A stretch of DNA of 42,623 nucleotides from Candidatus Levyibacteriota bacterium (GTDB lineage Bacteria > Patescibacteriota > Microgenomatia > Levybacterales > UBA12049), in the NCBI GenBank assembly GCA_013816255.1, contig JACDET010000008.1, positions 1 through 42,623 of the forward strand. Reading direction: 5' to 3'. Each line of letters begins with the position of its first letter. Within the stretch, counting starts at the first letter, position 1. The translations under genes and the position numbers were made by a program. The notes below the pieces were generated by a model that saw nothing but the letters and a program-made list of their open reading frames with translations, searched no databases and was not told the origin of the DNA. Of the stretch, positions 6,001-33,523 are shown piece after piece.

Positions 6001-9000
6001 ATAATGCAGGCAATGTGGGGATCGGGACAAGTGCACCAGGATCAAAGCTTCAGGTAGCAGGAGATACACGAATCAGCGGACATCTCGCACTTGGCGCAAC
6101 TGGAGCAATTAGTACTGCACAGCTTCTGAGCATTGCCGAGACATTATCCAATCCAGTCTCACCCCGAGGAATTGATCTCAGTTTGGTATCAAATCTCACA
6201 GCAGACAGTACAACAGATGGCATTGGTATTAGGAACGTTTACACAATAACAGGCACAGGAAATCAAACAATAGGAGGAGGCGTACGATCAGTTGGTGCCC
6301 TAAATGCTCTGACATGGAACAGTACAGGAACGGCGAGTAATCTGTTGGGAAGTGAAAATATTATCACGGCTGGTGCAGCATCGGGTGCGGTTACGCTAGC
6401 GAGAGGTGTCTTTGGACGAATTGATAACTCGGGCGCAAATACCATCAGCACAGCCAACGTGTTTGAGGCAGCTGCTACTACGGGAACTGGCACAATATCG
6501 AATTACCGGGGTCTTCTCGTTCCAAATCTTGGCAGCTCATTAATTACCAATAGTGTCGGTGTTGCTATCGTCGATCAATCAGGAGCAGGTAATAATACCA
6601 ATCTTCTGTTGGGAACAAGTACCGCTCCATCAGGTAACTACAGCATTTATAACAGCTCAACCAACAAAAACTATTTTGCAGGCACCATTGGCATAGGTAC
6701 AACAAATCCACTTGCAACGCTTGATGTCAGGGGGCTTTCAGGGACTACTCCTGTTGCATCGTTCTCAGGCCAGACATCCAATGCTGGCTTGATCGTCGAT
6801 AACAATGGTGTTGGAGATCTCTTCACAGCAAGTAAGAGTGGTGCGACGAAGTTTGTGATTGCAAATAACGGTGATATTAAGCTTGCTGGCAACCAAACTA
6901 TTGATACGTTAACTGCAGGAACACTCGGTATCGGCACAAATACACAAAGCGGTTTGACTCTGGGTCGAGCGGGTGCCGCGACAACGATTAATGGATCAAC
7001 AATAACATTGCAGAACTTAACGTTAAGCGGTGTAACCGCAAATAATAGCGTATTGTACGCCAACACCTCAGGAGCAGTTGGCGCCGTCGGTACAACTTCA
7101 ACCGCTAATCTTTGTCTCTTGTCAGGTTCAGGGGCAGCTGCTCCAAATTGGGGAGCGTGTGATACATCTACAGGCGTCAATCTATGGCAGCAGAACAATG
7201 GCGCGTTGTCACCAAAGAACACGACGGTTGATCTCTTGATCGGGGGGACAGCAAGTAACACAGCACAATTCGCAGTGCTTGGGGTCAACGATGGTACCCC
7301 GGTTGCTTCTGTTTCAGCAACCACCAACAAAAATGGTATCTCACTAGATGCTGCAAACAGTACGATTCAAGCAACATTGAACAACAATTTAATCCTTGGC
7401 GGCACGACAACCGGAAAGATCATCCTTGCTGATAATTTGCAGCTCAACACCAACACCATCCTTGATTCGGCTGCGGCAACAAGGATTGCTTTAGGTGCAA
7501 CAACGACATTGACCAACACCACAACAACGTTCTCAGGTACCACAACAATCACAGCATCTGGCTTGACAACGTTCACAACAGCGGCAGCATTAAGTATGGG
7601 AAGCACGACATCATTGACCCTTGGTGGCAGTGCTACTGTCTATGGTGGGACAGGTGCATCATCGACATTGACACTTGCCGGAACTTCAAATGGTACTCCA
7701 AGCAATGCGCATCTATTCCTTAATCCAACCGGTCAGGGATCAGTTGCCATCGGTACCACAAATCCGCTTGCAACACTCGATGTCCGAGGCAATTCTGGTA
7801 CAACCCCTATTGCCTCATTCTCAGGCCAGACCTCTAGTGCAGGATTAATCGTTGATAACAACGGCCTGGGAGATCTCTTCACTGCAAGCAAATCTGGGGC
7901 GACCAAGTTCACTGTTTTGAACAATGGTAATGTGCAAATTGCAAACCTTACAACTGCAGGTGGAGTGCTGTACACAAACGGCACAGGAACCGTTGCTCAG
8001 TCAACACAAGGGACATCAGGACAATGTCTCCAATCACAAGGTGTGACAGGTATTCCTGTATGGGGTTCATGTGACGGAGCGGGAAGTGTCAATTCATTCA
8101 CGCTTGCCAATGGACTCTTGTACAACAGTAATTTGACCACGGACTTTGCAATCGGAGGTAACTCTTCTGCCTCAGCTAAGTTCCAAGTCAGCATCAGCGG
8201 CACGCGACCGACAGCTTCTATCTCAGCCACCACCGCAAATGCAGGTCTCGTTGTTGACAATACAATCGGTGACCTATTCGCAGCGTCAAGCTCAGGGCTA
8301 AACAGGTTTGTGATCAATCAAAATGGTAATGTCGGTATCGGTACGAGCAATCCATCAAGTAAGTTCCAAATTAATACACTCAATACAGCAGCACCGACAT
8401 TTCAGGCTGCTATTTATACAGGTGGTAATAATAATAGTGGTCTAGTCATCCAAGGGGCAGCCGCACAGAGTACCAGTACTAATCTCCTGGAGTTCCAGGA
8501 TTCTGATGGAACTCTCTTTGCAAGTGTCAGTTCAAATGGTAAATGGCGAGTAAATGGAGGTACAGCTGCTTTCCCCGGATATTCCTTTAGCAGTGATACA
8601 AATACCGGTATTTTTAGAGATACTGCTGATGAGCTGGCAGTGAGTACTGCCGGGACTGAACGCTTCCGTGTGATGTCTAACGGAAGTATTGGAGTTGGAA
8701 CAGCTTCACCGCTTGCCACATTTGATATCCGGGGTAATTCCGGCACAACCCCTATTGCCTCATTCTCAGGCCAGACCTCTAGTGCCGGTTTTATCGTCGA
8801 TAACAACGGCGTAGGAGATCTCTTCACGGCAAGTAAGAGTGGTGCGACGAAGTTCACGATTCTTAACAACGGTAATATCAGAATTAATAATCTCGCCAGT
8901 TGTAACACGATTGATACTGATGTCAATGGTATCCTCAGTTGTGGGACAGATGAGGGCGGCGGAGCGACACAGAATTACTGGCAGTTGAATAATGGTGCAG

Positions 9001-10070
9001 TTTCACCGTTCTCTAATACTGCTGATCTTCTTATCGGTGGAACTGCAACTACCAGTGCAAAGTTTGCATTCATCAATAGCCTCACAGGTACACCAACAGC
9101 AAGTATCTCAGCAAGTTCCGGCAACAATGCAACGTTTTTAACTGGTTTGGGTGTTCTCGGCACCACCAATGCACAGACACTGACACTCGGCTCATCTACG
9201 ACGGGTAATGTATCATTTGCACCAGGAGGCGCAACTGCCTTCACAGCATTTGCAAATGGCAGAATCGGTATAGGCACCACCAATCCATTAGCGACATTTG
9301 ATCTGAGGGGTAATTCAGGAACAATCCCAGCTGCTTCTATCTCAGCACAATCTTCATTTGCAGGATTAGTAGTCGATAACAACGGCGTAGGTGATCTCTT
9401 TACTGCTTCTAAGTCCGGTGCGACCAAATTCACTATCCGCAATAGTGGGGTAGTAGTCATCGGTAGCGATACCAATGGTCTGACATTTGATGCTATCAAC
9501 GGCGGTCCGAATTACACCGGTACAGCGAGACCGACAAAGAAGATTACTTTGTCACCTGAATTTGCAGGTGCAGTCCTCACAGCTTCAGGTTCTGCCACTA
9601 CTGTCGGGAGCATGACATCTGACGCCTCCACTTCAGCTGCCTTGTCAAACTTCCAGACATATTACGAATGGTCATCATCATCGACATCATTCCAAGATTA
9701 CACAATTGCCGTGCGTGTGACATTGCCACAAGATTTCTCTGCATGGGCAACCACAAACGCGCTCCAGATTGGCTACAACACAGAACTTGGGGCCAACGGC
9801 AGCAATAAACTTGATGCCACTGTGTACAATACCGATGTTTCATTGTCAGCCACAGAAGCAGTCACCCCAGTGGCCTATTACCAGGCACAAAGCACCGCTT
9901 CCAAGACTTGGACCAATCTCAGCATTGATGATTCTGATCTTGATGATGGCAGTGCAACTGATCTGGACGCGCCAGGGGATACAGCAGTTATTTATCTCAG
10001 AGTCTATTCAAAAGACAGCAATCACGTACAAATTGGTGATATCGTGTTGAATTATCTCAGTAAATTCTAA
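1..10070 (+). CDS. Giant repetitive fibre/adhesin-like surface protein, 5'-truncated by window edge
   Basis: The frame is open from the left edge (codons from base 3 read through), so the true start lies outside; the TTG at 60 is only the first possible start inside the window. About 3,355 codons are visible, ending TAA at 10068-10070. The protein is rich in Gly, Thr, Ser, Ala and Asn, with almost no Lys/Arg-rich stretches. It is built from two alternating modules: one containing GIGTTNPLATLDVRG, NNGVGDLFTASKSGATKF and NNGNV, and one containing NYWQ, GAVSP, DLLxGGTSTxSAKF and GTPTASxSA. Paired Cys occur in modules such as GTICLVEAGNCAGSG. The last ~200 residues are non-repetitive and look like a beta-rich terminal domain. 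Beta-fibre proteins of this style occur in CPR genomes and resemble phage tail fibres. I see no S74-type chaperone domain, catalytic motif or LPXTG. An attachment or surface-fibre role is inference. The next gene overlaps by one base. Confidence 0.85.
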   Translation, partial: TGSHTISASAGTLELGAYTLTGAITGNSQNITGINNLSAAGAITFGGFSTNNGLLYTNGSGVVAQAAAGTTGQILIANGSGVPTFTTVGTDATIDANGALTIANNAVALGTDTTGDYVATLTSGNGISATATGEGSTPTLALSALTADWDQTGAFDIVLNNAASELQIKESAGNTYFGAIDVGDLTNNRTYTFPDATGTICLVEAGNCAGSGSGVTTAGGTTNRLVKFTGAQAVGNASIEDLYASGVALTIDTLGRLGIGTAVPTGLLTVSGGNFGGNAAAVFNQTGGASNDILTASASGTTKFTINNNGNVQFAGNTSFINTLTSVATQNRTYTLPDSAGTICLVEAGNCAGSGGGLTGAGTAGQIAFFNGAGTLTSETSGFAWDATNNRLGIGNDTPVGRLDVTGANLGKALVIFDETGDQNILVGSASGTTRFSFDRSGNLNLIGGGYQIGGANVLTSTALGSSVVGSSLTSVGALAGGSIANGFGTIATANTITGTTLNGTTGINTGATAGTQRIDASGNLVNIGAITASGALTFSNYSTNGGILYTNGSGVVGQTTTGTSGQVLQSNAGGAPTWVDAATLGTNYFQRNLGTLSPLNITDDLLVGGTATSSAKFQIFGNTGNATTSGSLTFNTASSIQTTANQTLTIGGNTTGNITLSPLNGNGSVTSTGDLNLVTGKGYQINGANVLTATALGTGVTGSSLTSVGALASGSIANGFGTITTANTITGTTLNGTTGINTGAGAGTIRIDATGNLSNIGTINASGAVTFTNLGAGIVKSSAGGLLSSSALNLSGAEVTGTLGAGNGGTGFATYTTGDLLVGNGSSTLSKLAIGSDGQILSIAGGTPSWISSSSINFWQRANGTVAPLNITDDLLLGGTSTSSAKFAFINNIGSGTPTASISANSGNNATFLTGAGILGTTNAQTLTLGSTSTGNVSLAPGGTTALTALANGKVGIGTTNPNAVLDITGSAGGGLPISARINNTNAAGVSQVVLASNTREFALGTGGSSTAAANAFYIHDLTANVTRFGIDSAGRVGIGSDAVLSVLRATLDVRGNSGTLPFASFSGQTANTGFLVDNNGVGDLFTASKSGATKFTILNNGNVRINNLASCDTIDTDANGVLGCGTDAGAGSTNYWQLNNGAVSPANSTNDLLLGGTSTASAKFAFINNIGAGTPTASISAGTNGAIYLTATGTLQTTANQTLSLGGSTTGNILLNSDGNNFIGIGTATPDSPVQISTDIDTVGQILKISGTITGTNSDKSGILASPTITPSGASNKFYFGITAVPYSTSTNLASGALAGLSAGAYFDGAGTLGAAYGTYIQNIKAGAGTISDAYGSIILNPNRVAGTITRNAGLAIGNQTEGTNNTNLLLGTSTIPTGNFSIYNASTYTNYFAGVLGIGTTNPLATLDARGQSGTTPVASFSGQTSNAGLIIDNNGVGDIFTASKSGATKLTLTNAGNLNLAAGNAYQVGGVSGITQGTAACVTTTGGIVTGFGICETGADTWTLNASAGTVATSISTVDVLIGGTSTASAKFAFLNNTGSGTPTASVSAGTAGNNAFLTGAGNLGTTNAQTLTLGGASTGNIVLDSGSGIITLADNTTLSQNLTIAGSTGLTFSSTGSINLAGGTISDSTDEVDINDDLAVSGILQVGGTSATTYSRLGTGTKGGTNIDASNDLFISGALEVDDLIYADGGIDTTFTLGSVLFAGANGVLTENNANYFWDNTNARLGLGTTSPLARLDVRGQNATTPAASISANSNFAGLVIDNSGTGDLFTASKSGATKFVINNAGDVQISNLTTAGGILYANGIGTVAQTTAGSSGQCLKSNGGATPSWSACGGAGAADNYWQMTDGTVSPFSNTLDLLVGGTSTASAKFAVLNVNSGTPTASVSAGLNGAAYLSATGVLGTTNNQTLTLGSSSTGNLAFAPGGVTAFTAFANGRIGIGTTNPLATLDLRGNSGTLPAASISAQSSFAGLVVDNNGVGDLFTASKSGATKFVIDNAGNVGIGTSAPGSKLQVAGDTRISGHLALGATGAISTAQLLSIAETLSNPVSPRGIDLSLVSNLTADSTTDGIGIRNVYTITGTGNQTIGGGVRSVGALNALTWNSTGTASNLLGSENIITAGAASGAVTLARGVFGRIDNSGANTISTANVFEAAATTGTGTISNYRGLLVPNLGSSLITNSVGVAIVDQSGAGNNTNLLLGTSTAPSGNYSIYNSSTNKNYFAGTIGIGTTNPLATLDVRGLSGTTPVASFSGQTSNAGLIVDNNGVGDLFTASKSGATKFVIANNGDIKLAGNQTIDTLTAGTLGIGTNTQSGLTLGRAGAATTINGSTITLQNLTLSGVTANNSVLYANTSGAVGAVGTTSTANLCLLSGSGAAAPNWGACDTSTGVNLWQQNNGALSPKNTTVDLLIGGTASNTAQFAVLGVNDGTPVASVSATTNKNGISLDAANSTIQATLNNNLILGGTTTGKIILADNLQLNTNTILDSAAATRIALGATTTLTNTTTTFSGTTTITASGLTTFTTAAALSMGSTTSLTLGGSATVYGGTGASSTLTLAGTSNGTPSNAHLFLNPTGQGSVAIGTTNPLATLDVRGNSGTTPIASFSGQTSSAGLIVDNNGLGDLFTASKSGATKFTVLNNGNVQIANLTTAGGVLYTNGTGTVAQSTQGTSGQCLQSQGVTGIPVWGSCDGAGSVNSFTLANGLLYNSNLTTDFAIGGNSSASAKFQVSISGTRPTASISATTANAGLVVDNTIGDLFAASSSGLNRFVINQNGNVGIGTSNPSSKFQINTLNTAAPTFQAAIYTGGNNNSGLVIQGAAAQSTSTNLLEFQDSDGTLFASVSSNGKWRVNGGTAAFPGYSFSSDTNTGIFRDTADELAVSTAGTERFRVMSNGSIGVGTASPLATFDIRGNSGTTPIASFSGQTSSAGFIVDNNGVGDLFTASKSGATKFTILNNGNIRINNLASCNTIDTDVNGILSCGTDEGGGATQNYWQLNNGAVSPFSNTADLLIGGTATTSAKFAFINSLTGTPTASISASSGNNATFLTGLGVLGTTNAQTLTLGSSTTGNVSFAPGGATAFTAFANGRIGIGTTNPLATFDLRGNSGTIPAASISAQSSFAGLVVDNNGVGDLFTASKSGATKFTIRNSGVVVIGSDTNGLTFDAINGGPNYTGTARPTKKITLSPEFAGAVLTASGSATTVGSMTSDASTSAALSNFQTYYEWSSSSTSFQDYTIAVRVTLPQDFSAWATTNALQIGYNTELGANGSNKLDATVYNTDVSLSATEAVTPVAYYQAQSTASKTWTNLSIDDSDLDDGSATDLDAPGDTAVIYLRVYSKDSNHVQIGDIVLNYLSKF
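860..9465 (+). repeat. Diverged alternating repeat modules within the giant gene
   Basis: About eleven copies of a module ending in SKSGATKF or a variant are visible near 890, 1290, 3270, 4340, 5335, 5970, 6830, 7890, 8290, 8835 and 9410. About eight copies of a second module (NYWQ...DLLxGGTST...SAKF) begin near 1765, 2575, 3410, 4515, 5540, 7180, 8090 and 8975. Copies agree well in protein but differ at many synonymous sites, so they are old duplications under protein-level selection, not recent slippage. Spacing is irregular, with inserts such as the ~6040-6680 stretch between copies. Confidence 0.85.
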
Positions 10071-13000
10071 TGAAAGGCAAAATGAAAAATAAACTATTCG
10101 TATCTCTCTTAATCCTGATTTTACAAATGCCATACCTGGCTCCAGGAGTAGCGTACGCGCAGGAGCCTGCGGCTACTTCTTCGGCAGAGTTTGCAATCCC
10201 TACTGTTTCAAGCCTTGTGGCTGCAGTCACAGCGCTCTTTAAAAAACCTGAACCACCTGAGACGCCTGTTACGATCCGGCACTTGAGTAAAAAAGAATTC
10301 CGTTCAGATGAAGATGCATTGTTCTTTCTTGAAAATGCCGAAGAGCGGCAAAAGCTTGAGACAACCGTTACCGACCCCAAAGGTAATCCAATCGATCTCC
10401 CGGTACAGCTCAGCCAAATCGGAACAAATATCACAATGACTGTTGAGCCGCCAAAAGATTTTATCCCTGGAACATATACGGTGACAGTGAAAGAAAGCGA
10501 TGGGCCGACGGTTGCCAAAACTGAATTTGTCTGGGGCGTGCTTGCGATCAACACACACAAATCTATCTATCTGCCCAACGAAACAGCCGAAATTGCCATC
10601 GCAGTGCTTGATGACAATGGTGCCATGGTTTGTGATGCCGATGTCGAACTGAGAATCAAATCGCCAAACGCATCTACCGCCAGCAGTGAAGCTGTCCTCT
10701 CAACCAAAAACGGCAAAATTATCATCAATGAGGAATGTCAAATCAAAGCAGTCACCGTAAAGCCAGATTACGAAACTTCCTATGTTGTCGGCGGTGTAGG
10801 CACGTATGCAATGAACCTGACTGCCACCACCAAAAACGGTACACATAGCATTACTGACAAATTCCAGGTATGGGAATCCGTTCCGTTTGATGTGGAGCGC
10901 ACGACTGCAACACGTATCTATCCGCCAGAATCATATCCCGTCAATTTTACCATCACAGCCAATCAGGACTTTGTAGGAACAATCGTCGAAACCGTCCCGC
11001 ATAAGTTCACCATTGGTCCTGCCCAATCAGGCACTTCCTATGATCTCGCCCAAAGTGCTACAGGTTCTGCGTCACCCAAAGAAGTTCTCGGGGCAAGCAC
11101 GACTGGAATCAGTATGCCATTCAATGGACCATATCCCATAACCCAAGGATTTGGTGCATTGGTCACTGATGCTGGACTGTTGGGTAAATATCTTACCTAT
11201 GGTCTGGCCGGTCATGATGGATTGGATTTTGGCCTACCGATCGGGACAGAAATCAAGGCAACAGGCGATGGAGAGGTGATACTGGCTGATGAAAAAGGGG
11301 ACTACGGCATTACCATGGTCATACAACACCCATGGGGTCGAAGTTATTATGGGCATTTGAGTAAGATGGTTGTAGAGCAAGGGAAGAAGGTAACCCGTGG
11401 TGAAGTGATCGCACTTTCAGGGAATACCGGTGAATCTACCGGACCGCATTTGCATTTTGGTATAAAGCCGGTTAGCAATGACACACAAAACGGCTACTAC
11501 GGCAAAGTCGACCCGCTACCGTTTCTGACTGCTCTGAGTACACCTTTACCTGTACTGATAGGCCAAGTCCTCTCGGCCAGTGATTCAGGAGCGCAAAACA
11601 CCCCGCAAGGACAGCAGATGAAGATACTTACAGCATTCGACCAACCACAAGAGGTGCCAGACGGCGAGCCAGATACCAAACAACTCTCATGGGATGTTTC
11701 TTTGAAAAAAGGCGAAACCATAGCGCTTGGCTACACCTACAAAGCTCCACTCATAAGCCCGTATCTCTATACCCTCGGCCCCTTGAAGTTTATTAAAAAC
11801 TGTCATGCTGAACTTGTTTCAGCATCTCCTACTTCCGACCCCGAGATCCTGAAACAAGTTCAGGATGACAAAGCATGCCAAAATAATGAAGTTTTTGCCG
11901 AGCAAAGAGAATGGCAAATCGCGGCTGATGTCGTGGTTTCTGGAACTACTGTGGCGAACGCAGAATATAATTCAGCAAACGGATCAAACATTGTGTTTGT
12001 ATCTGATACAACTGGGTATGTGTTTTATGTTGACTCAGGGCACCCATGTAACTATAGAAAAACAACTGATGGCGGTATCACTTGGGGATCTACTGTAGCA
12101 GTTGATAGCCAAACTGATTGTATGCGAGTGCAGGTTTGGTACGACCGGTGGACACCGGGAGACACAGGCAACTCTATTCATATCGTAACAGCAGATGACA
12201 GTGCCGCTGATGATAATCTCTGGTACAACCGCCTCGATACAGCAACAGATACGCTGCTTGTGGCGGCAAACGCGGTACAATCGATTAGTCAAGATAAAGA
12301 TAATACCTTTGCCTTTGCTGACAAGACCAATATTCACACAATCACCAAAGGAACCGATGGAGACTTATATGTCGGCGTACATGACGTTACGTCTACGACT
12401 GAGCTTAGTTTTATCAAAAAATGTACAGCGACGTGTAATACAGGAACGAACTGGACTGATGCCGGAACGAACCCTCTTGATGAAGCAAGCGGTGATATGG
12501 TGCTGTTAGTTCCACTGGCCAGTGCAAATATTATGGCCTTACGACTTGATAATAGTACAAATGATATTCAATCAAAAGTCTATAATGATTCAGCTGGCAC
12601 TTGGGATGCGGGCTGGACTACAATTGACGCGGATGTACCGAATAATGGCCAATATGACCCGCTCATGTCGGCTGTCGTCAATCCGTCGAACTATGAGATC
12701 TATCTTGCCTATACTGCTGATAACGATACCCTTGTAACTGCTGATCACGACATCAGAACTGCCATCTATAATGGTTCAAGTTGGACAGCCAAAACTGACG
12801 CCTTAATCGACAGTAATGATGGCACTGGAAGCAATATGGGACTAACTGGCGTAAAAATAGGACTTGATACCAATACCAACGACCTCTATGTGCTCTACAC
12901 AGCACGATCCAATATTTTAAATGCAGCAACGACCAACGTGTATTTACGGAAATCTACAAATCTTATGACAAACTGGGGAAGTAGATCACAAGTTAATACT

Positions 13001-13198
13001 AGTGCCGCGGCTGATTTTTATTCACCATTTTTTACACCGATATCAAATGAACGGCTTTATGCTGTATGGGGTGATTATGATGCCGCAGTCCGTGATATCT
13101 TTGGAGAAACTGCGGTGGACCTTGTTCCCAAGGAATTTCTCCTGCGTCACGGCAAGAACTTCAATGGCTCAGGCGTCAGACAGCCGTATACGTTCTAG
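10070..13198 (+). CDS. Secreted M23 (LytM-type) peptidase-like protein with Asp-box C-terminal region
   Basis: 1042 residues. An N-terminal signal peptide is visible (hydrophobic stretch ending near AYAQ). Residues ~160-270 resemble an Ig/macroglobulin-like beta domain (KSIYLPNETAEIAI). Residues ~355-480 are an M23 metallopeptidase domain: H382 and D386 in GHDGLDFG, and H460/H462 in GPHLHFG, match the zinc-ligand pattern of LytM/lysostaphin endopeptidases, so it should be catalytically competent. M23 enzymes cut peptidoglycan cross-bridges outside the membrane. Residues ~630-1030 form a beta-rich region with an Asp-box (TTDGGITW near 664), typical of sialidase/BNR-like propellers. ATG 10070 overlaps the previous stop (TAATG), suggesting translational coupling; ATG 10082, preceded by GAAAGG, is an alternative start. 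A palindromic repeat is inserted in frame near residues 577-601. Target (own wall or host wall) cannot be told. Confidence 0.85.
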   Translation: MKGKMKNKLFVSLLILILQMPYLAPGVAYAQEPAATSSAEFAIPTVSSLVAAVTALFKKPEPPETPVTIRHLSKKEFRSDEDALFFLENAEERQKLETTVTDPKGNPIDLPVQLSQIGTNITMTVEPPKDFIPGTYTVTVKESDGPTVAKTEFVWGVLAINTHKSIYLPNETAEIAIAVLDDNGAMVCDADVELRIKSPNASTASSEAVLSTKNGKIIINEECQIKAVTVKPDYETSYVVGGVGTYAMNLTATTKNGTHSITDKFQVWESVPFDVERTTATRIYPPESYPVNFTITANQDFVGTIVETVPHKFTIGPAQSGTSYDLAQSATGSASPKEVLGASTTGISMPFNGPYPITQGFGALVTDAGLLGKYLTYGLAGHDGLDFGLPIGTEIKATGDGEVILADEKGDYGITMVIQHPWGRSYYGHLSKMVVEQGKKVTRGEVIALSGNTGESTGPHLHFGIKPVSNDTQNGYYGKVDPLPFLTALSTPLPVLIGQVLSASDSGAQNTPQGQQMKILTAFDQPQEVPDGEPDTKQLSWDVSLKKGETIALGYTYKAPLISPYLYTLGPLKFIKNCHAELVSASPTSDPEILKQVQDDKACQNNEVFAEQREWQIAADVVVSGTTVANAEYNSANGSNIVFVSDTTGYVFYVDSGHPCNYRKTTDGGITWGSTVAVDSQTDCMRVQVWYDRWTPGDTGNSIHIVTADDSAADDNLWYNRLDTATDTLLVAANAVQSISQDKDNTFAFADKTNIHTITKGTDGDLYVGVHDVTSTTELSFIKKCTATCNTGTNWTDAGTNPLDEASGDMVLLVPLASANIMALRLDNSTNDIQSKVYNDSAGTWDAGWTTIDADVPNNGQYDPLMSAVVNPSNYEIYLAYTADNDTLVTADHDIRTAIYNGSSWTAKTDALIDSNDGTGSNMGLTGVKIGLDTNTNDLYVLYTARSNILNAATTNVYLRKSTNLMTNWGSRSQVNTSAAADFYSPFFTPISNERLYAVWGDYDAAVRDIFGETAVDLVPKEFLLRHGKNFNGSGVRQPYTF
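11801..11870. repeat. Palindromic element inserted in frame in the M23-protein gene
   Basis: Two 27-bp arms (11801-11827 and 11844-11870) are inverted copies with two mismatches. Each arm is itself a hairpin: ATGCTGAA/TTCAGCAT on the left and ATCCTGAA/TTCAGGAT on the right. The two mismatches are compensatory within each hairpin. In frame it encodes HAELVSAS...EILKQVQDD, a peptide I recognise as the translation of a widespread short bacterial palindromic repeat. It falls between the M23 and propeller regions. Confidence 0.85.
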
Positions 13199-14409: not shown

Positions 14410-15963
14410 TTACTCATCTGGATTAGAGAGTAATGGATTATACGTTGGTGTCGGAGCACTATTTGGATTGAATGGAACCTGCGTTGCTGTTGGATATATT
14501 TGATTAGTCGGCGCAGGCGCTGTTGCTTTTTGTTTTAACGCTTGTAATCGACTGACTAAGTCATTTTGTATCGTTGCATATGCAGGCTTTCCCGCTTGGT
14601 TATTTACCTCGTACGGATCAATAGCATAGTCATACAATTCCTTCTCTCCAGTAACATATTCAGTATAGAGATATTGTTCCGTACGGACAGAGAAAAAGTT
14701 AGGAGGATTATCCGCACTTACTTTACCACCGCCACCCCATTTTTGTAATAGTTCATTTCGCCATGATTGGGAAGTCCCTTCAATTAATGGAACGAGTGAC
14801 ATACCGTCCTGATATATGCCAGGAGTAACACCGGCAATTTGAGATATAGTAGAAGCTATATCGATATTTTGCACCAGTTGCGGAACATGTTTGGCTTGCT
14901 GTCCAGGATATCTGACCAAAAGAGGTGTACGCATACATACACTGTATGGACATCGCTTTTTTTGCCATCGGTGTTCACCATATGCAAAACCATTATCTGT
15001 CATAAAGATTATGATGGTGTTGTCAGCAACCCCTCGGGCGACAAGTGCGTCATCAATTTTTTTCAATGAGTCGTCGACAGCGAGCATCATTTCCCATGTC
15101 TTTCGGCGATTAGCATCTAAGTTATAAGCATTGGGCTTAACGAGATTTCGTATATACGCTGGTTTATCAGAAACGTCTGCTTCATTAAAGCTTTGGTCAT
15201 GAGGCACTGGCTCATTTAGATACTTTCCTTTATGTCGAGGAGCTGGAGTAAATGGTGAATGAGGTGCGTTAGGAGCAAAATACAAGAAGAACGGACCCTG
15301 CGCTGTGTTTATGAAGTTTACAGCTTTTGTTGCGAGCACATCTGTTGAGTAATCAGCAGCGGTTGATCCGTACGTCCGTGTTGTATTATTCTCATTCAAC
15401 GTGTAATTATAATAAGCAGGTCCTGGTTTGGTAAACGCCTGCCATTCATTCCAACCAGCAGGAATATATTCACCACGGTTCCAAGGATATCCATTAAGAT
15501 ATTTTCCAATCATTGCTGTTTTATATCCGCCTTGTTGCAGCCATATAGGTAAGGTATTTGCTTCATTTAACTTTTGGCCGTCATTTGGTGGAACATTATT
15601 TAAAACACCAGTGTGTGAGTCATATTGACCGGTTAATATAGTTGAACGGGAAGAACAGCAGAGTGATACATTCAAAAATGCATTATCAAACGTAATCCAA
15701 TCTGTTCGGGATGAAAGATACGGCATCTTTGCAACAGAATCAATGTTTTCATCATCTGTCATGATAAAGACAATATTTGGTTTTTCAGTAGAAGCATTTG
15801 CATTGAAATTAGATTTTTCGCTCGAAAGTTTATTAAGAGCAACGAGGGCTACTATACATCCAACCAGAACAATTCCGGAAAATACGATACGTGTTGTTGA
15901 CCATCTTTTTTGGCTACTTTTAGAGGTGCGGTTATTTTTGAGTCCTTTTTTTATTTGTATCAT
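14410..15963 (-). CDS. Membrane-anchored sulfatase, variant active-site motif
   Basis: 517 residues from ATG 15963, chosen because it aligns with the start of the paralogue upstream; ATG 15978 and 15999 are alternatives. A signal-anchor helix (residues ~24-44) precedes an alkaline-phosphatase-superfamily sulfatase domain: IVFIMTDDE (metal Asp 70/71), the formylglycine motif region, and MTDNGFAYGEHRW (second metal site). The formylglycine motif reads C102-C-S-S-R106 instead of C-x-P-x-R, so the conserved proline is Ser. Sulfatases hydrolyse sulfate esters; the substrate is unknown, with extracellular glycans likely given the anchor. A Pro/Thr-rich tail follows. A TTGACA lies at 16012-16007 on the minus strand. 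No formylglycine-generating enzyme is encoded in this window. Confidence 0.85.
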   Translation of the reverse strand: MIQIKKGLKNNRTSKSSQKRWSTTRIVFSGIVLVGCIVALVALNKLSSEKSNFNANASTEKPNIVFIMTDDENIDSVAKMPYLSSRTDWITFDNAFLNVSLCCSSRSTILTGQYDSHTGVLNNVPPNDGQKLNEANTLPIWLQQGGYKTAMIGKYLNGYPWNRGEYIPAGWNEWQAFTKPGPAYYNYTLNENNTTRTYGSTAADYSTDVLATKAVNFINTAQGPFFLYFAPNAPHSPFTPAPRHKGKYLNEPVPHDQSFNEADVSDKPAYIRNLVKPNAYNLDANRRKTWEMMLAVDDSLKKIDDALVARGVADNTIIIFMTDNGFAYGEHRWQKKRCPYSVCMRTPLLVRYPGQQAKHVPQLVQNIDIASTISQIAGVTPGIYQDGMSLVPLIEGTSQSWRNELLQKWGGGGKVSADNPPNFFSVRTEQYLYTEYVTGEKELYDYAIDPYEVNNQAGKPAYATIQNDLVSRLQALKQKATAPAPTNQIYPTATQVPFNPNSAPTPTYNPLLSNPDE

Positions 15964-16021
15964 GCTCTTTGATTTCATTTGAAATGATGCATATAGCATT
16001 ATATTTTGTCAAGTATTCAAG

Positions 16022-17497
16022 TTAAATTGCCGGCGTTGGGCTTGGAATGGGCGCTGCTGCTTTTTGTTTTAATACTGTTAACCGACTAACTAAGTCACTT
16101 TGTATCGTTGCATATTCAGGCTTTCCCGCTTTGTTATTTACCTCGTACGGATCAATAGCATAATCATACAATTCTTTCTCTCCATTTACATACTCAATAT
16201 AGAGATATTGTTCAGTGCGTATAGAAAAAAAGTTCGGTGGATTTCCGACAGTGACACCGCCTCCGCCCCCCCATCTTTGCAACAGTTCCGATCTCCATGA
16301 CGTCGCAGTTCCTTCAATTAATGGAACAAGTGACATTCCGTCCTGCTGTATACCTGGAGTCACACCGGCAAATTGAGCAATGGTAGAGGCCAAATCAATA
16401 TTCTGAACCAATTGCGTAACATGTTTGCCTTGCTGTCCCGGATACCTGACTAAGAGAGGCGTACGCATGCATGTACTGTACGGGCATTTTTTCTGTTTCC
16501 AACGGTGTTCACCAAGCGCATATCCATTATCTGTCATGAATATGACAATTGTATTATCTGCAACCCCCTTCGCAACGAGCGCATCATCAATTTTTTTCAT
16601 TGATTCATCGACTGCCAGCATCATTTCCCATGTACTTCGACGATCTTTATCTAACGAAGCAAGATTAAGCGTAGGTAGTTTACGAATATAGGCTGGCTTA
16701 TCAGAAACATCTGCCTCATTAAAGCTTGGGTCATGAACTACTGGCTCCTTGACATATCGTCCCTTATGACGGGGTGCTGGAGTATACGGGTTGTGCGGTG
16801 CGTTTGGAGTAAAGAATAAGAAGAATGGCCCTTGTGACGAGTTAATAAAGTTTACAGCTTTTGCGGCCAGAACATCTGTTGAGTACTCATCTGCGGTTGA
16901 TCCGTATGTCCGTGTTGTACCATTTTCATTCAATGTATAATTATAATACCCAGGTCCTGGCGCACTAAACGCTTGCCATTCATTCCATCCCGCAGGGATA
17001 TAGTTACCCCGATTCCATGGATAGGCATTAAGATATTTCCCAACTAACGCTGTCTTATATCCTCCCTGTTGTTGGAGCCATACAGGGAGCGTATTTGCTT
17101 CGTTTAACTTTTGGCCGTCATTTGGTGGAACGTTATTTAAAACACCGGTGTGCGAGTCGTACTGGCCGGTTAAGATACTTGAGCGGGAAGGACAACAGAG
17201 TGCATTATTCAAAAATGCATTATCAAAGGTAATCCAATCGGTTCGAGAATTAAGATAGGGCATCTTTGCAACAGAGTCCATCATTTCATCATCCGTCAGG
17301 ATAAATACAATATTTGGCTTTTCAGTAGAAGCATTTGCATAAAGCGCGGATTTTTCGCCGGAGATTTTGTTGAGGGAAACGAGTGTGATGATAAGTCCAA
17401 TGATGGTAATACCAAAGAAGAGGAGATGAGTCTTTGACCATTTTCTTTGAGGACTTTTACTCTTGCGATTATTGATGACTCTTTTTTTTGTTCCCAT
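16022..17497 (-). CDS. Membrane-anchored sulfatase, canonical active-site motif
   Basis: 491 residues from ATG 17497. A longer reading to TTG 17551 would start inside the -35 box, so ATG 17497 is preferred. It has the same plan as the downstream paralogue: Lys/Arg-rich N-terminus, one membrane helix (~22-43), then IVFILTDDE (Asp 69/70), a perfect sulfatase signature with C101-C-P-S-R105, and MTDNGYALGEHRW. C101 is expected to be converted to formylglycine. The two genes are 58 bp apart and highly similar over their whole length, so they are a tandem duplication. The active site should face outside the cell. The substrate is unknown. Confidence 0.88.
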   Translation of the reverse strand: MGTKKRVINNRKSKSPQRKWSKTHLLFFGITIIGLIITLVSLNKISGEKSALYANASTEKPNIVFILTDDEMMDSVAKMPYLNSRTDWITFDNAFLNNALCCPSRSSILTGQYDSHTGVLNNVPPNDGQKLNEANTLPVWLQQQGGYKTALVGKYLNAYPWNRGNYIPAGWNEWQAFSAPGPGYYNYTLNENGTTRTYGSTADEYSTDVLAAKAVNFINSSQGPFFLFFTPNAPHNPYTPAPRHKGRYVKEPVVHDPSFNEADVSDKPAYIRKLPTLNLASLDKDRRSTWEMMLAVDESMKKIDDALVAKGVADNTIVIFMTDNGYALGEHRWKQKKCPYSTCMRTPLLVRYPGQQGKHVTQLVQNIDLASTIAQFAGVTPGIQQDGMSLVPLIEGTATSWRSELLQRWGGGGGVTVGNPPNFFSIRTEQYLYIEYVNGEKELYDYAIDPYEVNNKAGKPEYATIQSDLVSRLTVLKQKAAAPIPSPTPAI

Positions 17498-17522
17498 GGT
17501 TATTATTACTTGCTCGCTTATA

Positions 17523-17551
17523 TTATTACCACTGTAGCACTCTATTGTCAA
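17523..17551 (-). promoter_or_regulatory. Promoter of the sulfatase pair
   Basis: On the minus strand, TTGACA (17551-17546), a 17-bp spacer and TAATAA (17528-17523) precede ATG 17497 by about 25 bases. It probably drives at least the first sulfatase gene. Confidence 0.6.
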
Positions 17552-17648: not shown

Positions 17649-18179
17649 TTATTTTAACCCAGTTACTCCAACTGGTGGATAGGCAGTTGCATTAGCGGTA
17701 CAAAGTACTCCTGTTTTGCCATCTGCTGATGACCAAACAACCCAACTAACCTGTGTACTATTTGGTGTACAACCAGCTTTCGTAAATTCATTGAGTGATT
17801 CTGCTCGAGCATAAATAATTGCGTCAGTGCCATTTGATTCATAGCAGTAACCGTTCTGTGCAACACCAGCTTTGACACAAGGGACTGATGTATTATTTGG
17901 TAGTGCTTTCAAGTCTCCAGATATCTTTAATGGATTCATCCATGTTGTGCTTGAAGCTGGGTATGCATTTGTACCTTGGCTTGCTTGATAAGCCTCGACA
18001 GAACGAGACAATTGGCTAATTGCTGTCTTTTCTCCAGCATCTCTGCCGCGCGCTAATTGCTCCAACGGATTTATAGCTGTTAAAACAACTGCTGCAAGAA
18101 CACCAATTATTCCAATAACAACGAGAAGCTCGATAAGGGTAAATCCTTGTTCTTTTTTAAATGTAGTTTTAGTAGTCAT
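17649..18179 (-). CDS. Type IV pilin-like (pseudopilin) protein
   Basis: 176 residues from ATG 18179; an extension to TTG 18221 runs into the upstream promoter region and is disfavoured. The N-terminus has a class III prepilin signal: KKEQG12|F13TLIELLVV with Glu at position +5 of the mature protein, followed by a ~20-residue hydrophobic helix. After cleavage and methylation by a prepilin peptidase (not in this window) it would assemble into a pilus or pseudopilus. The globular part carries two Cys pairs (CVKAG...GYC; GC...VLC). The motif is definite; whether it is a major pilin, minor pilin or pseudopilin cannot be told. A TTGACA lies at 18228-18223 on the minus strand. No pilus assembly genes are nearby. 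Confidence 0.88.
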   Translation of the reverse strand: MTTKTTFKKEQGFTLIELLVVIGIIGVLAAVVLTAINPLEQLARGRDAGEKTAISQLSRSVEAYQASQGTNAYPASSTTWMNPLKISGDLKALPNNTSVPCVKAGVAQNGYCYESNGTDAIIYARAESLNEFTKAGCTPNSTQVSWVVWSSADGKTGVLCTANATAYPPVGVTGLK

Positions 18180-18324
18180 AGTATTTACGATTAATACAAT
18201 TAAAACATTACAGAAGAGCAACTGTCAATAGGGCAACTTTTTGTAAAACACAGAGCACTTTATATACTATTTTCCGAGAGGCTATACGAGTTCTTTTTGT
18301 AACTATGCAGTACGTATTACTCTC

Positions 18325-18363: not shown

Positions 18364-20487
18364 ATGAGAAAAAAAGCAATAGTTATCGGAGGGGGATTTG
18401 CGGTCATGCTGATGGGTGTTATCTTGGCGGTGTCGTTGACACAGCAACAGCAGGAGACAAGAAGTAGAGCTGCAAGCGGAAGCGCTACGTTAGCTATTAC
18501 ACCTGATTCAACAACAGAAAATCCCGTCACAACGCAGGTCGGAAATCCTGTGAGTGTCGATATCATACTGACTCCAGGGCAAACGCAAGTATCACTTGTT
18601 ACCTTTGATATACTCTATGATGCTTCTGTATTGCAGGCAAACATGGGTACCATTGTCTTGAATAATACAGCATTTCCTGTGACAGTAGAAGGTCCAATTG
18701 CTGAATCTGGGAAGCTTGCAGTAACGGTTTCTATCGGATCAGATCCAGTAAATGCAATTAAAGTCCCAACCAAAGTAGGAACCCTAACCTTTACAGCAAT
18801 AGCTCCGACAGCATCAGCTACAAATGTCACTTTTGGACCGTTAACGAAAGTATTATCTGTTGGGGCAAGTGATGATAATGTGAATGTCCTCACAGGAACT
18901 ACTCCTGGTTATATAGTTGTACAAGCAGGTCCAACAAGTACCCCAACCCCAACTCCTGGGATCGATCCATTTCCAACGACAATCGCTACACCAAGTCCAA
19001 CGTTGACCGCTGCACCAACGGTAGATCCACGAGCAACAATCCTTGACCTAACACTCCTGCTCCATGGTATTGGCACAGGTGGCGATAATGCAAAAGCAAC
19101 TGCAGGTGGTAATCCGCAACCAAATCGGACACAGCGTACAGTAACTGTGAATATTATTAATAGTAATAACAAAGTGGTAGGGACAAAGACAGGTACCGTT
19201 ACGTATAATCCACTTGCTGGTACTTTCACAGGAAAGATTGACGCCGGAGTAGGATTAGCGAGCGGTTCATACACAGTCAAAATAAAGACAGATCCATACC
19301 TTAAGACATTGGTTCCTGGTATTCAAAAACTTACAGCAGGACAAGTGAATACCTTGCCAGCAACAACATTAATTTCAGGAGACATTAATAAGGATAATAG
19401 TATTAATATACTGGATTACAATATTCTTTCCGGTTGTTACAGCGACCTCCAGCCTGCAAAGAGTTGTACCGCTGCAAATACTATTCTTGCAGATTTGACT
19501 GATGATGGGAAAATTAATCAGTTTGATTACAACCTCTTTCTTCGGGAGTTAACCAATCGAAGTGGAGAAAGCAATCCGACAACTGCTCCTACCCAGGCTA
19601 CAACTGTTGCGCCGTCACAACAGGTATCACCATCGCCAACACCGGTAACGCAAACAGGAACATCATTACTCCAACCAGTCAGTACGTATACATCATACAA
19701 GAACCTCCGGTACAGTAATGCAAGTACACGCCTGCTCCTTGATCTCTATGTGCCCGACCACAGCGGCGTGAAACCTTTGTTAGTCTATATCCACGGTGGC
19801 TTCTGGAGTAGTGGCAGCAAAGATTCGTGTCCTCCAATCCAGGATTATGGCAGCAAGACGTTTATGCACCGAGGGTTTGCCGTAGCTTGTATCAATTACC
19901 GTTATTCCAGTGAGGCTATTTATCCGGCGCAAATTGAGGACGTGAAAGCAAGTATTCGGTATCTTCGAGCAAATGCTTCACAATATGGATTGTATGACAC
20001 AAAGATTGCTGTCTGGGGTAGCTCAGCAGGGGGGCATCTCGCGGCTCTTGCCGGTACAACGAGTGACATCACTGCATATGACAAGGGGGAAAATTTGCAA
20101 TATTCAAGCAAAGTCGATGCTGTTGTCGACGATTTTGGACCGATTGACTTAGAAGCACTGTTGTCATCGCCTACCACTGATCCGAAAGGCTATGCTAGCG
20201 GCGTAAAGCTACTGGGTGGTGAGGGACCTGATCTTTACCCAAGAGCACGGGCTGCAAGTGCAAGAACCTATATAACCGCAGATGATTCACCGTTCTTCAT
20301 AGTGCACGGCAGTATTGATAGAATTGTCCCATTAAGCCAGAGTCAGCTCCTCGATGAGACGCTGAGAAATCTCAATATACCTTCACAATTAAATATCATA
20401 TCTGGAATGGGTCATGGTGGAGCACAGATGTTTGAGCCGGCTCGGCTCAGTGCAATTGCACTATTCCTCGATACATATATTCGATAA
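18364..20487 (+). CDS. Surface esterase fused to cohesin-like and dockerin-like domains
   Basis: 707 residues. Order: signal/anchor helix (~8-27); cohesin-like beta domain (~37-182, SVDIILTPGQTQVSLVTFDI); Thr/Pro linker; a beta domain (~220-335); dockerin-like pair of calcium loops (GDINKDNSINILDYNIL from ~339 and DLTDDGKINQFDYNLF from ~378); Thr/Pro/Gln linker; and an alpha/beta-hydrolase domain (~440-707). The hydrolase has an oxyanion motif (YIHGGFW), nucleophile S554 in GSSAGG, D652 in HGSIDRIVP and H684 in GMGHGG: a complete triad of the acetyl-esterase/BD-FAE/hormone-sensitive-lipase type. Likely substrates are acyl or acetyl esters, possibly on polysaccharides (inference). Cohesin and dockerin modules normally bind each other; having both in one chain is unusual. 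The promoter gives almost no leader. A tRNA gene follows. Confidence 0.85.
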   Translation: MRKKAIVIGGGFAVMLMGVILAVSLTQQQQETRSRAASGSATLAITPDSTTENPVTTQVGNPVSVDIILTPGQTQVSLVTFDILYDASVLQANMGTIVLNNTAFPVTVEGPIAESGKLAVTVSIGSDPVNAIKVPTKVGTLTFTAIAPTASATNVTFGPLTKVLSVGASDDNVNVLTGTTPGYIVVQAGPTSTPTPTPGIDPFPTTIATPSPTLTAAPTVDPRATILDLTLLLHGIGTGGDNAKATAGGNPQPNRTQRTVTVNIINSNNKVVGTKTGTVTYNPLAGTFTGKIDAGVGLASGSYTVKIKTDPYLKTLVPGIQKLTAGQVNTLPATTLISGDINKDNSINILDYNILSGCYSDLQPAKSCTAANTILADLTDDGKINQFDYNLFLRELTNRSGESNPTTAPTQATTVAPSQQVSPSPTPVTQTGTSLLQPVSTYTSYKNLRYSNASTRLLLDLYVPDHSGVKPLLVYIHGGFWSSGSKDSCPPIQDYGSKTFMHRGFAVACINYRYSSEAIYPAQIEDVKASIRYLRANASQYGLYDTKIAVWGSSAGGHLAALAGTTSDITAYDKGENLQYSSKVDAVVDDFGPIDLEALLSSPTTDPKGYASGVKLLGGEGPDLYPRARAASARTYITADDSPFFIVHGSIDRIVPLSQSQLLDETLRNLNIPSQLNIISGMGHGGAQMFEPARLSAIALFLDTYIR

Positions 20488-20773: not shown

Positions 20774-20802
20774 TTGTGTTGCATACTCCTCAGGTATATA
20801 AT
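20774..20802 (+). promoter_or_regulatory. Promoter of the sortase gene
   Basis: A perfect -10 TATAAT (20797-20802) with a weak -35 TTGTGT (20774-20779) at 17 bp. The -10 ends six bases before ATG 20809, so transcription would start at the ATG. This favours ATG 20809 over the upstream GTG at 20776, which overlaps the -35. Confidence 0.6.
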
Positions 20803-20808
20803 CCACCC

Positions 20809-21606
20809 ATGAAGCGCAATGATGCAATTCAATTTGTGGTACTTCGGAGTTTGGGTAACTTTCTTGTACTCTTTAGTCTGTACGGTGTTGGTGCGACTTT
20901 TGGTCCAGCTGCGACAGAACAAGTAAAGTACGCAATCATTCAGATAAGGGGAGTAGAGTTTGCCGTGGCAGATACTACTTCTGTCATCGCGATCGATAGC
21001 TCGGCAATCCCCTCCACGAGTGAAACAGAGCCCGGGATTGCTTCGTCACGTTCAGTTGGCATGAACGTGGCTTCGCCACAAGCTCCTCGCAATGACGCTT
21101 CTAAATCGCTTAGTTTTGCCGAGATCCTTGCAGGAGAGAAAGAACAAATATTGATACCCAAAGACTCATTGTTTAGTATTTTGATACCAAAGATAGGGGC
21201 ATCTTCACAAGTCTTTGCCAATGTCGATGCTGAGAACCGCGAAGAGTTCATTCCAGTCCTACAAAAAGGTGTCGCTCACGCCAAAGGTAGTGTCTTTCCA
21301 GGCCATCCGGGCAATACCTATCTCTTTGCCCATTCCGCTGATAACTTCTGGGATGTAGGCAACTACAACGCCGTATTCTATACGCTAGGTAACCTTTCTG
21401 AGAATGATGAGATAATCATCTTTTTTGAAAGTAGGCGATACACTTATCGAGTGACAAAAACACTGGTTTCAGATCCAAATGATGTGACCTATCTTACAGC
21501 ACCCCAAACAGGCCCAAACCGATTAATTCTCCAAACCTGTTGGCCACCAGGGACGACATGGAAACGGTTATATATTGTGGCAGAACCGAAAGAGATTAAA
21601 GATTAA
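20809..21606 (+). CDS. Sortase (class D/E-like)
   Basis: 265 residues from ATG 20809. An N-terminal membrane helix (~9-30) precedes a sortase beta-barrel (~115-260). The catalytic triad is visible: H175 in LFAHSADN, C244 in LQTCWPPGT and R253 in WKRLYIVA. Sortases cleave a C-terminal sorting signal and join the protein to the wall or to another surface protein. I find no clear LPXTG-type signal among the proteins in this window, so substrates are elsewhere or use another motif. Residues ~76-97, in the stalk between membrane helix and barrel, are encoded by an inserted palindromic repeat. The stop codon overlaps a 15-bp repeat that borders the next gene. Class assignment is tentative. Confidence 0.88.
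   Translation: MKRNDAIQFVVLRSLGNFLVLFSLYGVGATFGPAATEQVKYAIIQIRGVEFAVADTTSVIAIDSSAIPSTSETEPGIASSRSVGMNVASPQAPRNDASKSLSFAEILAGEKEQILIPKDSLFSILIPKIGASSQVFANVDAENREEFIPVLQKGVAHAKGSVFPGHPGNTYLFAHSADNFWDVGNYNAVFYTLGNLSENDEIIIFFESRRYTYRVTKTLVSDPNDVTYLTAPQTGPNRLILQTCWPPGTTWKRLYIVAEPKEIKD
21034..21098. repeat. Palindromic element inserted in frame in the sortase gene
   Basis: Bounded by ATTGC (21037-21041) and GCAAT (21089-21093). Inside are the hairpins CACGTTCA/TGAACGTG (21047-21054 with 21062-21069) and GTGGC-TTC-GCCAC (21067-21079). On the minus strand it begins like the common bacterial repeat GTCATTGCGAGGAGC and ends near GACGAAGCAAT. It encodes GIASSRSVGM...APRNDA in the stalk region, without breaking the frame. 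Confidence 0.8.
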
Positions 21607-31219: not shown

Positions 31220-32812
31220 ATGAAGACTAATTGGCATCAGTCTGTAATTTATCATATATATCCTCGGAGTTTTAAAGATAGCAACAAAGATGGTATTGGT
31301 GATCTTAATGGCATTATCCAAAAGCTTGATTATGTCGTAGAATTGGGAGCCGATACTATATGGATTTCTCCAACGTATCCTTCTCCCATGCGGGATTTTG
31401 GTTATGATATTTCTGATTTTTGTAATGTTGATCCTCTCTTTGGCACACTTGAAGACTTTGATAATTTAATACAAGAAGCCCACAATCGCAATATAAAAGT
31501 TATTATTGATTATATTCCTGGTCATACTGCATGGGAGCATCCATGGTTTGTTGCATCAGCGTCTTCTCGTATCAACCCAAAGCGCGATTGGTATATATGG
31601 AGAGACCCAAAGCCAGATGGTTCAGTTCCCAATAATTGGCTCAGTGTTTTTGGTGGCTCTCGATGGGAATATGACGCGCGAACTGGCCAGTATTACATGC
31701 ATTCATTTTTGAAAGAAATGCCCGACTTAAATTGGCGTAATCCTGAAGTAGTAGATGCGATGCTTGAAGTTTTGCGATTTTGGTTAAAGCGGGGCATTGA
31801 CGGTATTCGGATAGATTCATTTAATGTTATCTATAAGCACATGGATTATTTGGATGAGCCGTTGAATCCTGCCTATATTCATGGCGAGAACGATCCCTTT
31901 AGAGAACATGATCATATCTATACTCTCAGTCAACCAGAACTTTTGCCACTGCTTAAAACATTCCGTAAAGTATTATCTGAATTTGGAGATAAATTTATGG
32001 TGACAGAATCATATGTTGAGATGCCGCAATTACTGAAGTTATATAGAGCAGGGGACAGTCTCCATGCACCATTTAACTTTAATATTTTTAAATTACCATG
32101 GAACCTGAATGAGTATAAATCTTTCATTGATGTTTTTGATAAGGAAGTTGGTCATGAATACATTCCAACATACGTTTTGGGAAATCATGATAATCACAGA
32201 ATTGCTACAAAGATTGGTAGCAATCAAGCACGAATTGCGGCGATGTTACAATTGACACTTCGAGGTATGCCAACCGTCTATTATGGTGAAGAAATCGGTA
32301 TGATAGATGGAGAGATTTCATTGGACGAGATGCAAGATCCTTGGGCAAAGAATGTAGGAGATGTACGTTTGGGTCGAGATCCCCAGCGAACTCCTATGCA
32401 ATGGAACACTGAAAAATATGCGGGTTTTTCAACAAAAAAACCTTGGCTCCCAATAGGTAAACAATATATGTATAGTAACGTAGAAATACAACAATCAGAT
32501 ACACAATCAATGCTGAATCTCTACAAAACTATATTACATTTTAGAAAACAGTCTCCTGCATTATTGTATGGTACATATGAGTCACTTAAAATAAAAAATA
32601 AGAATGTGTATGCGTATATGAGAACGTATAAAACAGAAAAGCTTCTTATTCTGCTTAATTTTTCTGAAGAAGAGCAAAAAATTTCTTTAAACATTCCTAC
32701 GTCTCAAGTGATCTGTAATAGTTACCTAACAAAAGAAAAAGGAAGTTTAATGGATTTGAAGAATAGTACGCTTGCTCCATTTGAAGGATATATCTTGCAA
32801 CTATCTCAATAA
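31220..32812 (+). CDS. GH13 alpha-glucosidase-type enzyme
   Basis: 530 residues, the size of oligo-1,6-glucosidases and related GH13 enzymes. N-terminal VIYHIYPRSFKDSNKDGIGD and MPDLNWRNPEV are hallmarks of this group. Catalytic residues: nucleophile D199 in GIRIDSF, acid/base E263 in VTESY, and the third carboxylate D324 in GNHDNHR. All three are present, so it should be active. Region I reads DYIPGHT where most members have N before H. A C-terminal beta domain (~450-530) follows. Likely a cytoplasmic hydrolase or transglucosylase of short alpha-glucosides such as isomaltose, sucrose or trehalose; the exact substrate cannot be read from sequence. No signal peptide. Four bases after the GT4 gene. 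Confidence 0.9.
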   Translation: MKTNWHQSVIYHIYPRSFKDSNKDGIGDLNGIIQKLDYVVELGADTIWISPTYPSPMRDFGYDISDFCNVDPLFGTLEDFDNLIQEAHNRNIKVIIDYIPGHTAWEHPWFVASASSRINPKRDWYIWRDPKPDGSVPNNWLSVFGGSRWEYDARTGQYYMHSFLKEMPDLNWRNPEVVDAMLEVLRFWLKRGIDGIRIDSFNVIYKHMDYLDEPLNPAYIHGENDPFREHDHIYTLSQPELLPLLKTFRKVLSEFGDKFMVTESYVEMPQLLKLYRAGDSLHAPFNFNIFKLPWNLNEYKSFIDVFDKEVGHEYIPTYVLGNHDNHRIATKIGSNQARIAAMLQLTLRGMPTVYYGEEIGMIDGEISLDEMQDPWAKNVGDVRLGRDPQRTPMQWNTEKYAGFSTKKPWLPIGKQYMYSNVEIQQSDTQSMLNLYKTILHFRKQSPALLYGTYESLKIKNKNVYAYMRTYKTEKLLILLNFSEEEQKISLNIPTSQVICNSYLTKEKGSLMDLKNSTLAPFEGYILQLSQ

Positions 32813-32886
32813 CAAAGCATATATCTATCGTCATTTATTTTGTAAAGTTGCTAAGGAAAAATGAACGACGAGGTATACTACACTAT

Positions 32887-32916
32887 TTGTAAAATGATTT
32901 AAAGGGAGTATATAAT
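32887..32916 (+). promoter_or_regulatory. Promoter of the phosphatase/phosphorylase operon
   Basis: TTGTAA (32887-32892), 18-bp spacer, TATAAT (32911-32916). The -10 ends 16 bases before ATG 32933, giving a leader of roughly ten bases. Confidence 0.55.
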
Positions 32917-32932
32917 ACGAGTACAACAACTT

Positions 32933-33523
32933 ATGACAACGCAAAGAAAACCCTTTACTACAACTGTTTATGCAATGCGTCATGGACCAACCACATGGAA
33001 TTTGCAGAAAAGAATTCAAGGAAATGTCGAAACAGATATTGTTATAGATGAAATTGATTCCTACTTTGATCGAATACACGCGGAGGCCTTACCGGAGCCT
33101 GATCTAGTTGTCATTTCCGATTTGAAAAGAACTGAACAGACTGCAAAAGCATTGTATCGTTATAGAAATTGGAGGAACCTTGTGTTACAAAAGCGAAAAA
33201 AATTAAATGAAAGAAGGTGGGGAATCTTAGAAGGTGCAAAAATTGAAGATGCAAAACAACAGTTATTTGATAATGCTGCTATTCGCTTAGAGTATCCAGC
33301 AATACAAACTGTAGAGGATGTTGGAAAAGTTTGGGATAGTGATAATTTTGTTGTCGATGGAGGAGAATCAATTAGGGATGTACGTCAGCGGGTAAAGGTC
33401 GTGGTTAATGAAATTGTCAAAGAATATAATGGTAAAACAATACTTTTTATAGTTCACGCAGGCGTTCTTGTTTCACTCGGTCTTGATTATCAAAAGATCT
33501 CAAGGATTACTGTAAATAAATAA
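32933..33523 (+). CDS. Histidine phosphatase (phosphoglycerate-mutase-like)
   Basis: 196 residues. The phosphohistidine motif is YAMRHGPT with H17; ISDLKRTEQTA supplies the second Arg; NERRWGILEG supplies the Glu; the second His is in FIVHAGV near the C-terminus. All residues of the branch-1 histidine phosphatase site are present. Members include phosphoglycerate mutases and sugar-phosphate phosphatases, among them mycobacterial glucosyl-3-phosphoglycerate phosphatase. Its stop overlaps the start of the phosphorylase-like gene by one base (TAATG), so the two are likely translationally coupled. That makes a phosphatase acting on a phosphorylated glucoside an attractive but unproven role. Confidence 0.88.
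   Translation: MTTQRKPFTTTVYAMRHGPTTWNLQKRIQGNVETDIVIDEIDSYFDRIHAEALPEPDLVVISDLKRTEQTAKALYRYRNWRNLVLQKRKKLNERRWGILEGAKIEDAKQQLFDNAAIRLEYPAIQTVEDVGKVWDSDNFVVDGGESIRDVRQRVKVVVNEIVKEYNGKTILFIVHAGVLVSLGLDYQKISRITVNK

Follow-up and report, generated by a model that had tools for sequence, protein, structure and literature searches.

Cohesins and dockerins often share a chain in cellulosomes. Acetivibrio cellulolyticus provides two cases, ScaA and ScaK, the latter with two dockerins and two cohesins (PMC3413522). In Ruminococcus flavefaciens the adaptor ScaC recruits enzymes through its own cohesin and plugs into other scaffoldins through its own dockerin (PMC5934362). ANME archaea encode proteins with one dockerin and many cohesins (PMC9012536). 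For Microgenomates, the part of a report that we draw on here finds cohesin and dockerin genes to be expressed in Ca. Shapirobacterales, refers also to Ca. Roizmanbacterium, and presents the genes as cellulosome components (PMC9123182).

Here we analyze a 42,623-nucleotide stretch (the window) from the genome of a Candidatus Levyibacteriota bacterium, in which one gene joins a cohesin-like domain, an X-module, a dockerin and an esterase. The original prediction for this gene started from the premise that cellulosomal cohesin and dockerin lie on different proteins, which ScaA, ScaK and ScaC contradict. Judging from sequence comparisons, we give a probability of roughly 0.6 to the following reading: the protein would be a carbohydrate-esterase-like enzyme that is exported and takes part in a cohesin/X-dockerin surface display, in which its dockerin docks on a small membrane cohesin and its own cohesin acts as an adaptor socket.

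Domain architecture of the esterase protein

The gene is a single open frame and a real one (Table 1). X-module and dockerin together span aa 225-401, and a second linker separates the dockerin from the esterase. That one chain holds a cohesin-type domain together with a dockerin and an esterase with its triad intact, as predicted, is borne out by Pfam families, calcium loops and triad residues, the cohesin by way of its homologues and family profile.

Table 1 Features of the esterase protein and its gene; nucleotide positions are those of the window.
Feature	Position	Strand	Basis
Whole protein, 707 aa: cohesin, X-module, dockerin, BD-FAE esterase	18364..20487	+	ORF call and Pfam
Hydrophobic N-terminal segment (putative export), then conserved QQQQETRSRA	18364..18471	+	Sequence; 39/39 scored class A relatives
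Class A domain, very likely of cohesin fold, aa ~41-186	18484..18921	+	Homologue and profile comparisons, tree
Thr/Pro-rich linker, aa 190-222	18931..19029	+	Sequence
X-module, Ig-like, aa 225-335	19036..19368	+	Weak FlgD_ig match (4.6e-4); profile match into CipA X-module, 2b59_B
Dockerin with two F-hand Ca loops, aa 339-394	19378..19545	+	Pfam, family profile, loop residues
Ca-binding loop 1, D340-D351	19381..19416	+	Positions 1 and 12 Asp in 41/41 aligned X-dockerin relatives
Ca-binding loop 2, D377-D388	19492..19527	+	Positions 1 and 12 Asp in 41/41 aligned X-dockerin relatives
BD-FAE esterase domain, aa 459-707; S554, D652, H684	19738..20484	+	Pfam, triad residues

BD-FAE (PF20434) matches aa 459-667 with an E-value of 1.9e-58 and 197.9 bits over model positions 1-215 of 215. 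This full-length match and the intact Ser-Asp-His triad, with its serine in a GSSAG motif, place the enzyme in the family; an oxyanion HGG is found at 477-479. Of the esterases with a solved structure, Lip_vut4 (6nkf), a GH43-CE protein (6mly) and an acetyl xylan esterase (6xyc) are the nearest. Among the 73 genomes (0.3-1.6 Mb) of the bacterial family, close relatives of the esterase are confined to the window's genome, which holds three paralogues with 57-60% identity to the window's. They come with a cohesin and an X-dockerin (window), with a CBM and an X-dockerin (C16), or with neither (C22). A scan of genome contigs returned distant esterases only, and viral contigs contained no relatives. 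Since the paralogues occur in this genome only and in mixed set-ups, the enzyme fusion is a local rearrangement of a widespread framework.

Dockerin_1 (PF00404) is matched at aa 339-394 with 29.7 bits, above the cut-off of 22.9, which makes the domain a member of that family. Calcium-ligand positions are kept in loop 1 (D340, N342, D344, D351) and in loop 2 (D377, D381, D388). The profile of 41 X-dockerins has its best match in the X-module/type II dockerin of CipA (2b59_B, E 1.3e-9). As this match runs from the last part of the X-module into the dockerin, across the boundary between them, the window module can be described as a type II-like X-dockerin dyad, with an Ig-like module directly before the dockerin. 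X-modules are thought to stabilize type II dockerins (PMC5141474). Between the two loops, a Cys at aa 358 (19435-19437) is invariant in 41/41 X-dockerins and is often followed by a second Cys, which suggests a disulfide.

The cohesin domain itself (aa 41-186) matched no Pfam family, including Cohesin (PF00963), and family profiles were therefore used instead. Among 37 of its homologues, a group here called class A, 23 match PF00963 (best 5.8e-12), and no other family is matched. In hhalign, the class A profile aligns with that of the small cohesins discussed below at 98.9% and E 2e-17. Alone against the PDB, its top matches are cohesins, yet weak ones (0.049). As for the nine-stranded jelly roll of cohesins, the single-sequence AlphaFold model of the domain was poor (pLDDT 44.7), and Foldseek with this model gave a list of mostly cohesins, none significant (best E 0.013). 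Taken together, the window domain very likely has a cohesin fold.

At the N-terminus, the hydrophobic stretch could be a signal peptide or an anchor, and the QQQQETRSRA-like segment behind it could mark a candidate signal-peptidase site.

Elsewhere in the window, a repetitive ORF of 3336 aa (60-10070, +) with recurring GIGTTNPLATLDVRG-like units, matched by no Pfam or NCBIfam family, is followed by an M23 peptidase/MG2 protein (10070-13198). Two tandem, near-alike sulfatases with SGSH C-terminal domains and hydrophobic N-terminal segments lie at 14410-17551 (-), and a prepilin-type pseudopilin gene (17649-18221, -) is divergent from the esterase gene. Directly after the latter comes a sortase gene (20776-21606, +). 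Further downstream, two alpha-amylase-family genes (31220-35202, +) sit inside a glycosyltransferase cluster. PADLOC gave no match.

Cohesins and dockerins in the genome and the bacterial family

The prediction had asked for further dockerins and cohesins in the genome, and many more of both modules were found. There are about a dozen X-dockerin matches, several class A cohesins, two small membrane cohesins (contigs C33 and C46) and three paralogous chains that carry both cohesin and X-dockerin. Other X-dockerin proteins include a second BD-FAE esterase with CBM4_9, another CBM4_9 protein, a galactose-oxidase-like Kelch protein, vWA/SdrD_B proteins and a CAP protein. On C33, three successive genes code for an SdrD_B-like protein with an X-dockerin, a chain with both cohesin and X-dockerin, and a membrane cohesin; the window gene has no adjoining small cohesin gene. 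A multi-cohesin scaffoldin, as expected of a cellulosome, was not found in this genome of 1.55 Mb in 78 contigs, about 80% complete, in which all cohesin proteins detected have a single cohesin.

How are these modules distributed in the family? X-dockerins are present in 51/73 genomes, and many of the proteins that bear them (vWA, subtilase) are not carbohydrate enzymes. The small cohesins are proteins of ~205 aa with a single cohesin and a predicted membrane anchor. They match Pfam Cohesin more strongly than the class A domains do, and all 27 PDB matches of their profile are cohesins or scaffoldins by name (best 3l8q, 1.2e-9). Directly downstream of an X-dockerin gene we find 41 of the 62 small cohesin ORFs, in 40 of the 49 X-dockerin genomes listed. 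Chance pairing was considered and rejected, given this number in genomes of about a thousand genes that mostly hold 1-5 X-dockerin genes each.

Presence of an X-dockerin goes along with that of a small cohesin (44/51 genomes with it vs 10/22 without, p 8e-4) and of a class A domain (47/51 vs 14/22, p 0.005), and the 15/73 genomes that encode cohesin-X-dockerin chains, 21 in total, hold more other X-dockerin proteins (mean 3.8 vs 1.75, p 0.0016), all p values being optimistic since related genomes are not independent samples.

In a tree built by a quick method, with support given as SH-aLRT, a branch of 100% separates the small cohesins from class A, the window cohesin included. Small cohesins begin with a plain membrane helix and lack the TRSRA segment, for which a loose pattern matches 39/39 class A proteins and also fires on 10/29 small cohesins. 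From these features we infer that the small cohesins are anchors and that class A proteins are exported, perhaps cleaved.

Two class A domains are fused to a vWA domain (L023:3-1142 and L083:1-2073), and the fusion in L023 adjoins a vWA-SdrD_B-X-dockerin protein. Such fusions are possibly an adhesin module on the same sockets.

Which partners for dockerin and cohesin?

The gene pairs offer a starting point for a mechanism. Because a membrane cohesin is often encoded beside an X-dockerin gene in relatives, the enzyme probably sits on the cell surface and not on itself. In the presence of calcium, the X-dockerin of the esterase protein would plug into one of the small single-cohesin proteins anchored in the membrane (C33 or C46), and this docking would hold the esterase at the surface. 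Its class A cohesin would provide a second socket, most likely for a different protein, be it one of the surface or one with an X-dockerin, and not for the dockerin of its own chain. The 21 cohesin-X-dockerin chains, the X-dockerin-rich genomes that encode them and gene rows such as that on C33 count in favor of the adaptor role. Points that weigh against the overall reading are that the window gene does not adjoin a small cohesin gene, that the genome is incomplete, and that many X-dockerin proteins are no carbohydrate enzymes. Tentatively, one may go further and imagine a scaffoldin-free system of X-dockerin proteins with neighbor-encoded membrane cohesins, in which adaptors, here combined with an esterase, chain further clients to the surface via a second cohesin specificity; we hold this wider picture to be less likely than not.

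The class A domain might also bind no dockerin at all and be a surface or cell-wall module for another ligand, with the X-dockerin alone responsible for docking. We consider this unlikely, if to be taken seriously. Class A domains occur in 61/73 genomes, usually in proteins of ~400 aa with a hydrophobic C-terminal tail and without a dockerin, and an LPxTG-like motif precedes the tail at the end of 9/30 of them; they also form a clade apart from the small cohesins. Thirteen genomes (G001, G002, G016 and ten others) have class A cohesins and no detected dockerin. That nine of these are >=90% complete makes another ligand possible, and the thirteen, together with eight genomes that have small cohesins and no detected dockerin, indicate that cohesin-fold domains can have other partners. 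Against a ligand other than dockerin speak the Pfam Cohesin matches within class A, its association with X-dockerins across genomes, and its fusion to them in genomes rich in other X-dockerin proteins.

Could cohesin and dockerin of this protein bind each other? The original prediction had suggested self-association of neighboring molecules into chains or sheets, or intramolecular locking, and our results lend support to neither. A head-to-tail polymer, in which the cohesin of each molecule engages the dockerin of a following copy or of a paralogue and chains form on the surface, would draw on both modules being in one chain, and the cohesin-X-dockerin paralogues here and in the family have the right geometry. 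It is nonetheless improbable: the cohesins that gene order pairs with X-dockerins belong to the other, fully supported clade, and some near-complete genomes hold class A cohesins and no detected dockerin. Both points also weigh on locking, where the two modules of the same molecule would bind to regulate or protect the esterase. The linker between them is long and probably flexible and poses no steric bar, but the majority of the family members have just one of the two modules and no model supports the closed form, a single-sequence AlphaFold model of cohesin and X-dockerin (pLDDT 41) being too poor to judge docking. We regard locking as very improbable. Docking of the X-dockerin on a membrane cohesin, with the class A domain as adaptor socket, stays our preferred reading.

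Candidate-phyla bacteria whose genomes are reduced are believed to rely on other cells, and little is known of how their surface is made up. If true, the conserved pairing of an X-dockerin protein with a membrane cohesin would give such cells a simple means of mounting enzymes and adhesins, and would amount to a minimal, scaffoldin-free relative of cellulosomes.

Comparison with known systems

In its adaptor role the window protein would resemble ScaC of R. flavefaciens, likewise a combination of cohesin and dockerin. Unlike the window protein, ScaC is not known to have a catalytic domain, and its dockerin is of group 1, while that of the window is a type II-like X-dockerin. The closest likeness for the latter is Clostridium thermocellum CipA, whose X-module and dockerin are homologous in sequence (2b59_B) and, in loop 1, are likewise hydrophobic at positions 10-11. 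Anchoring differs: the CipA/SdbA type relies on larger SLH proteins, the system here on ~205 aa with one membrane helix. The order of dockerin and then carbohydrate esterase is known from C. thermocellum XynY-type enzymes (CBM22-GH10-CBM22-Doc-CE1; PMC3413522), in which, unlike here, the chain has no cohesin.

Similar in composition is A. cellulolyticus ScaA (CipV), in which a GH9 enzyme, cohesins and an X-dockerin form one chain as in the window protein (PMC3413522). ScaA has seven cohesins and a terminal X-dockerin, whereas the window protein has an esterase, one cohesin and an X-dockerin before the enzyme; ScaA also uses S-layer-type anchors, unlike the window system. The Microgenomates report has its domains, and probably also the type of organism, in common with the present case, and the part of it used here does not describe the gene pair of X-dockerin and membrane cohesin, the two cohesin clades or the esterase fusion (PMC9123182). 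Already known, then, are cohesin and dockerin genes in Microgenomates and, from ScaA, a single protein that unites cohesins and an X-dockerin with an enzyme; new, as far as we found, are the conserved pairing of X-dockerin and membrane cohesin, the division of the cohesins into two clades and the putative esterase adaptor.
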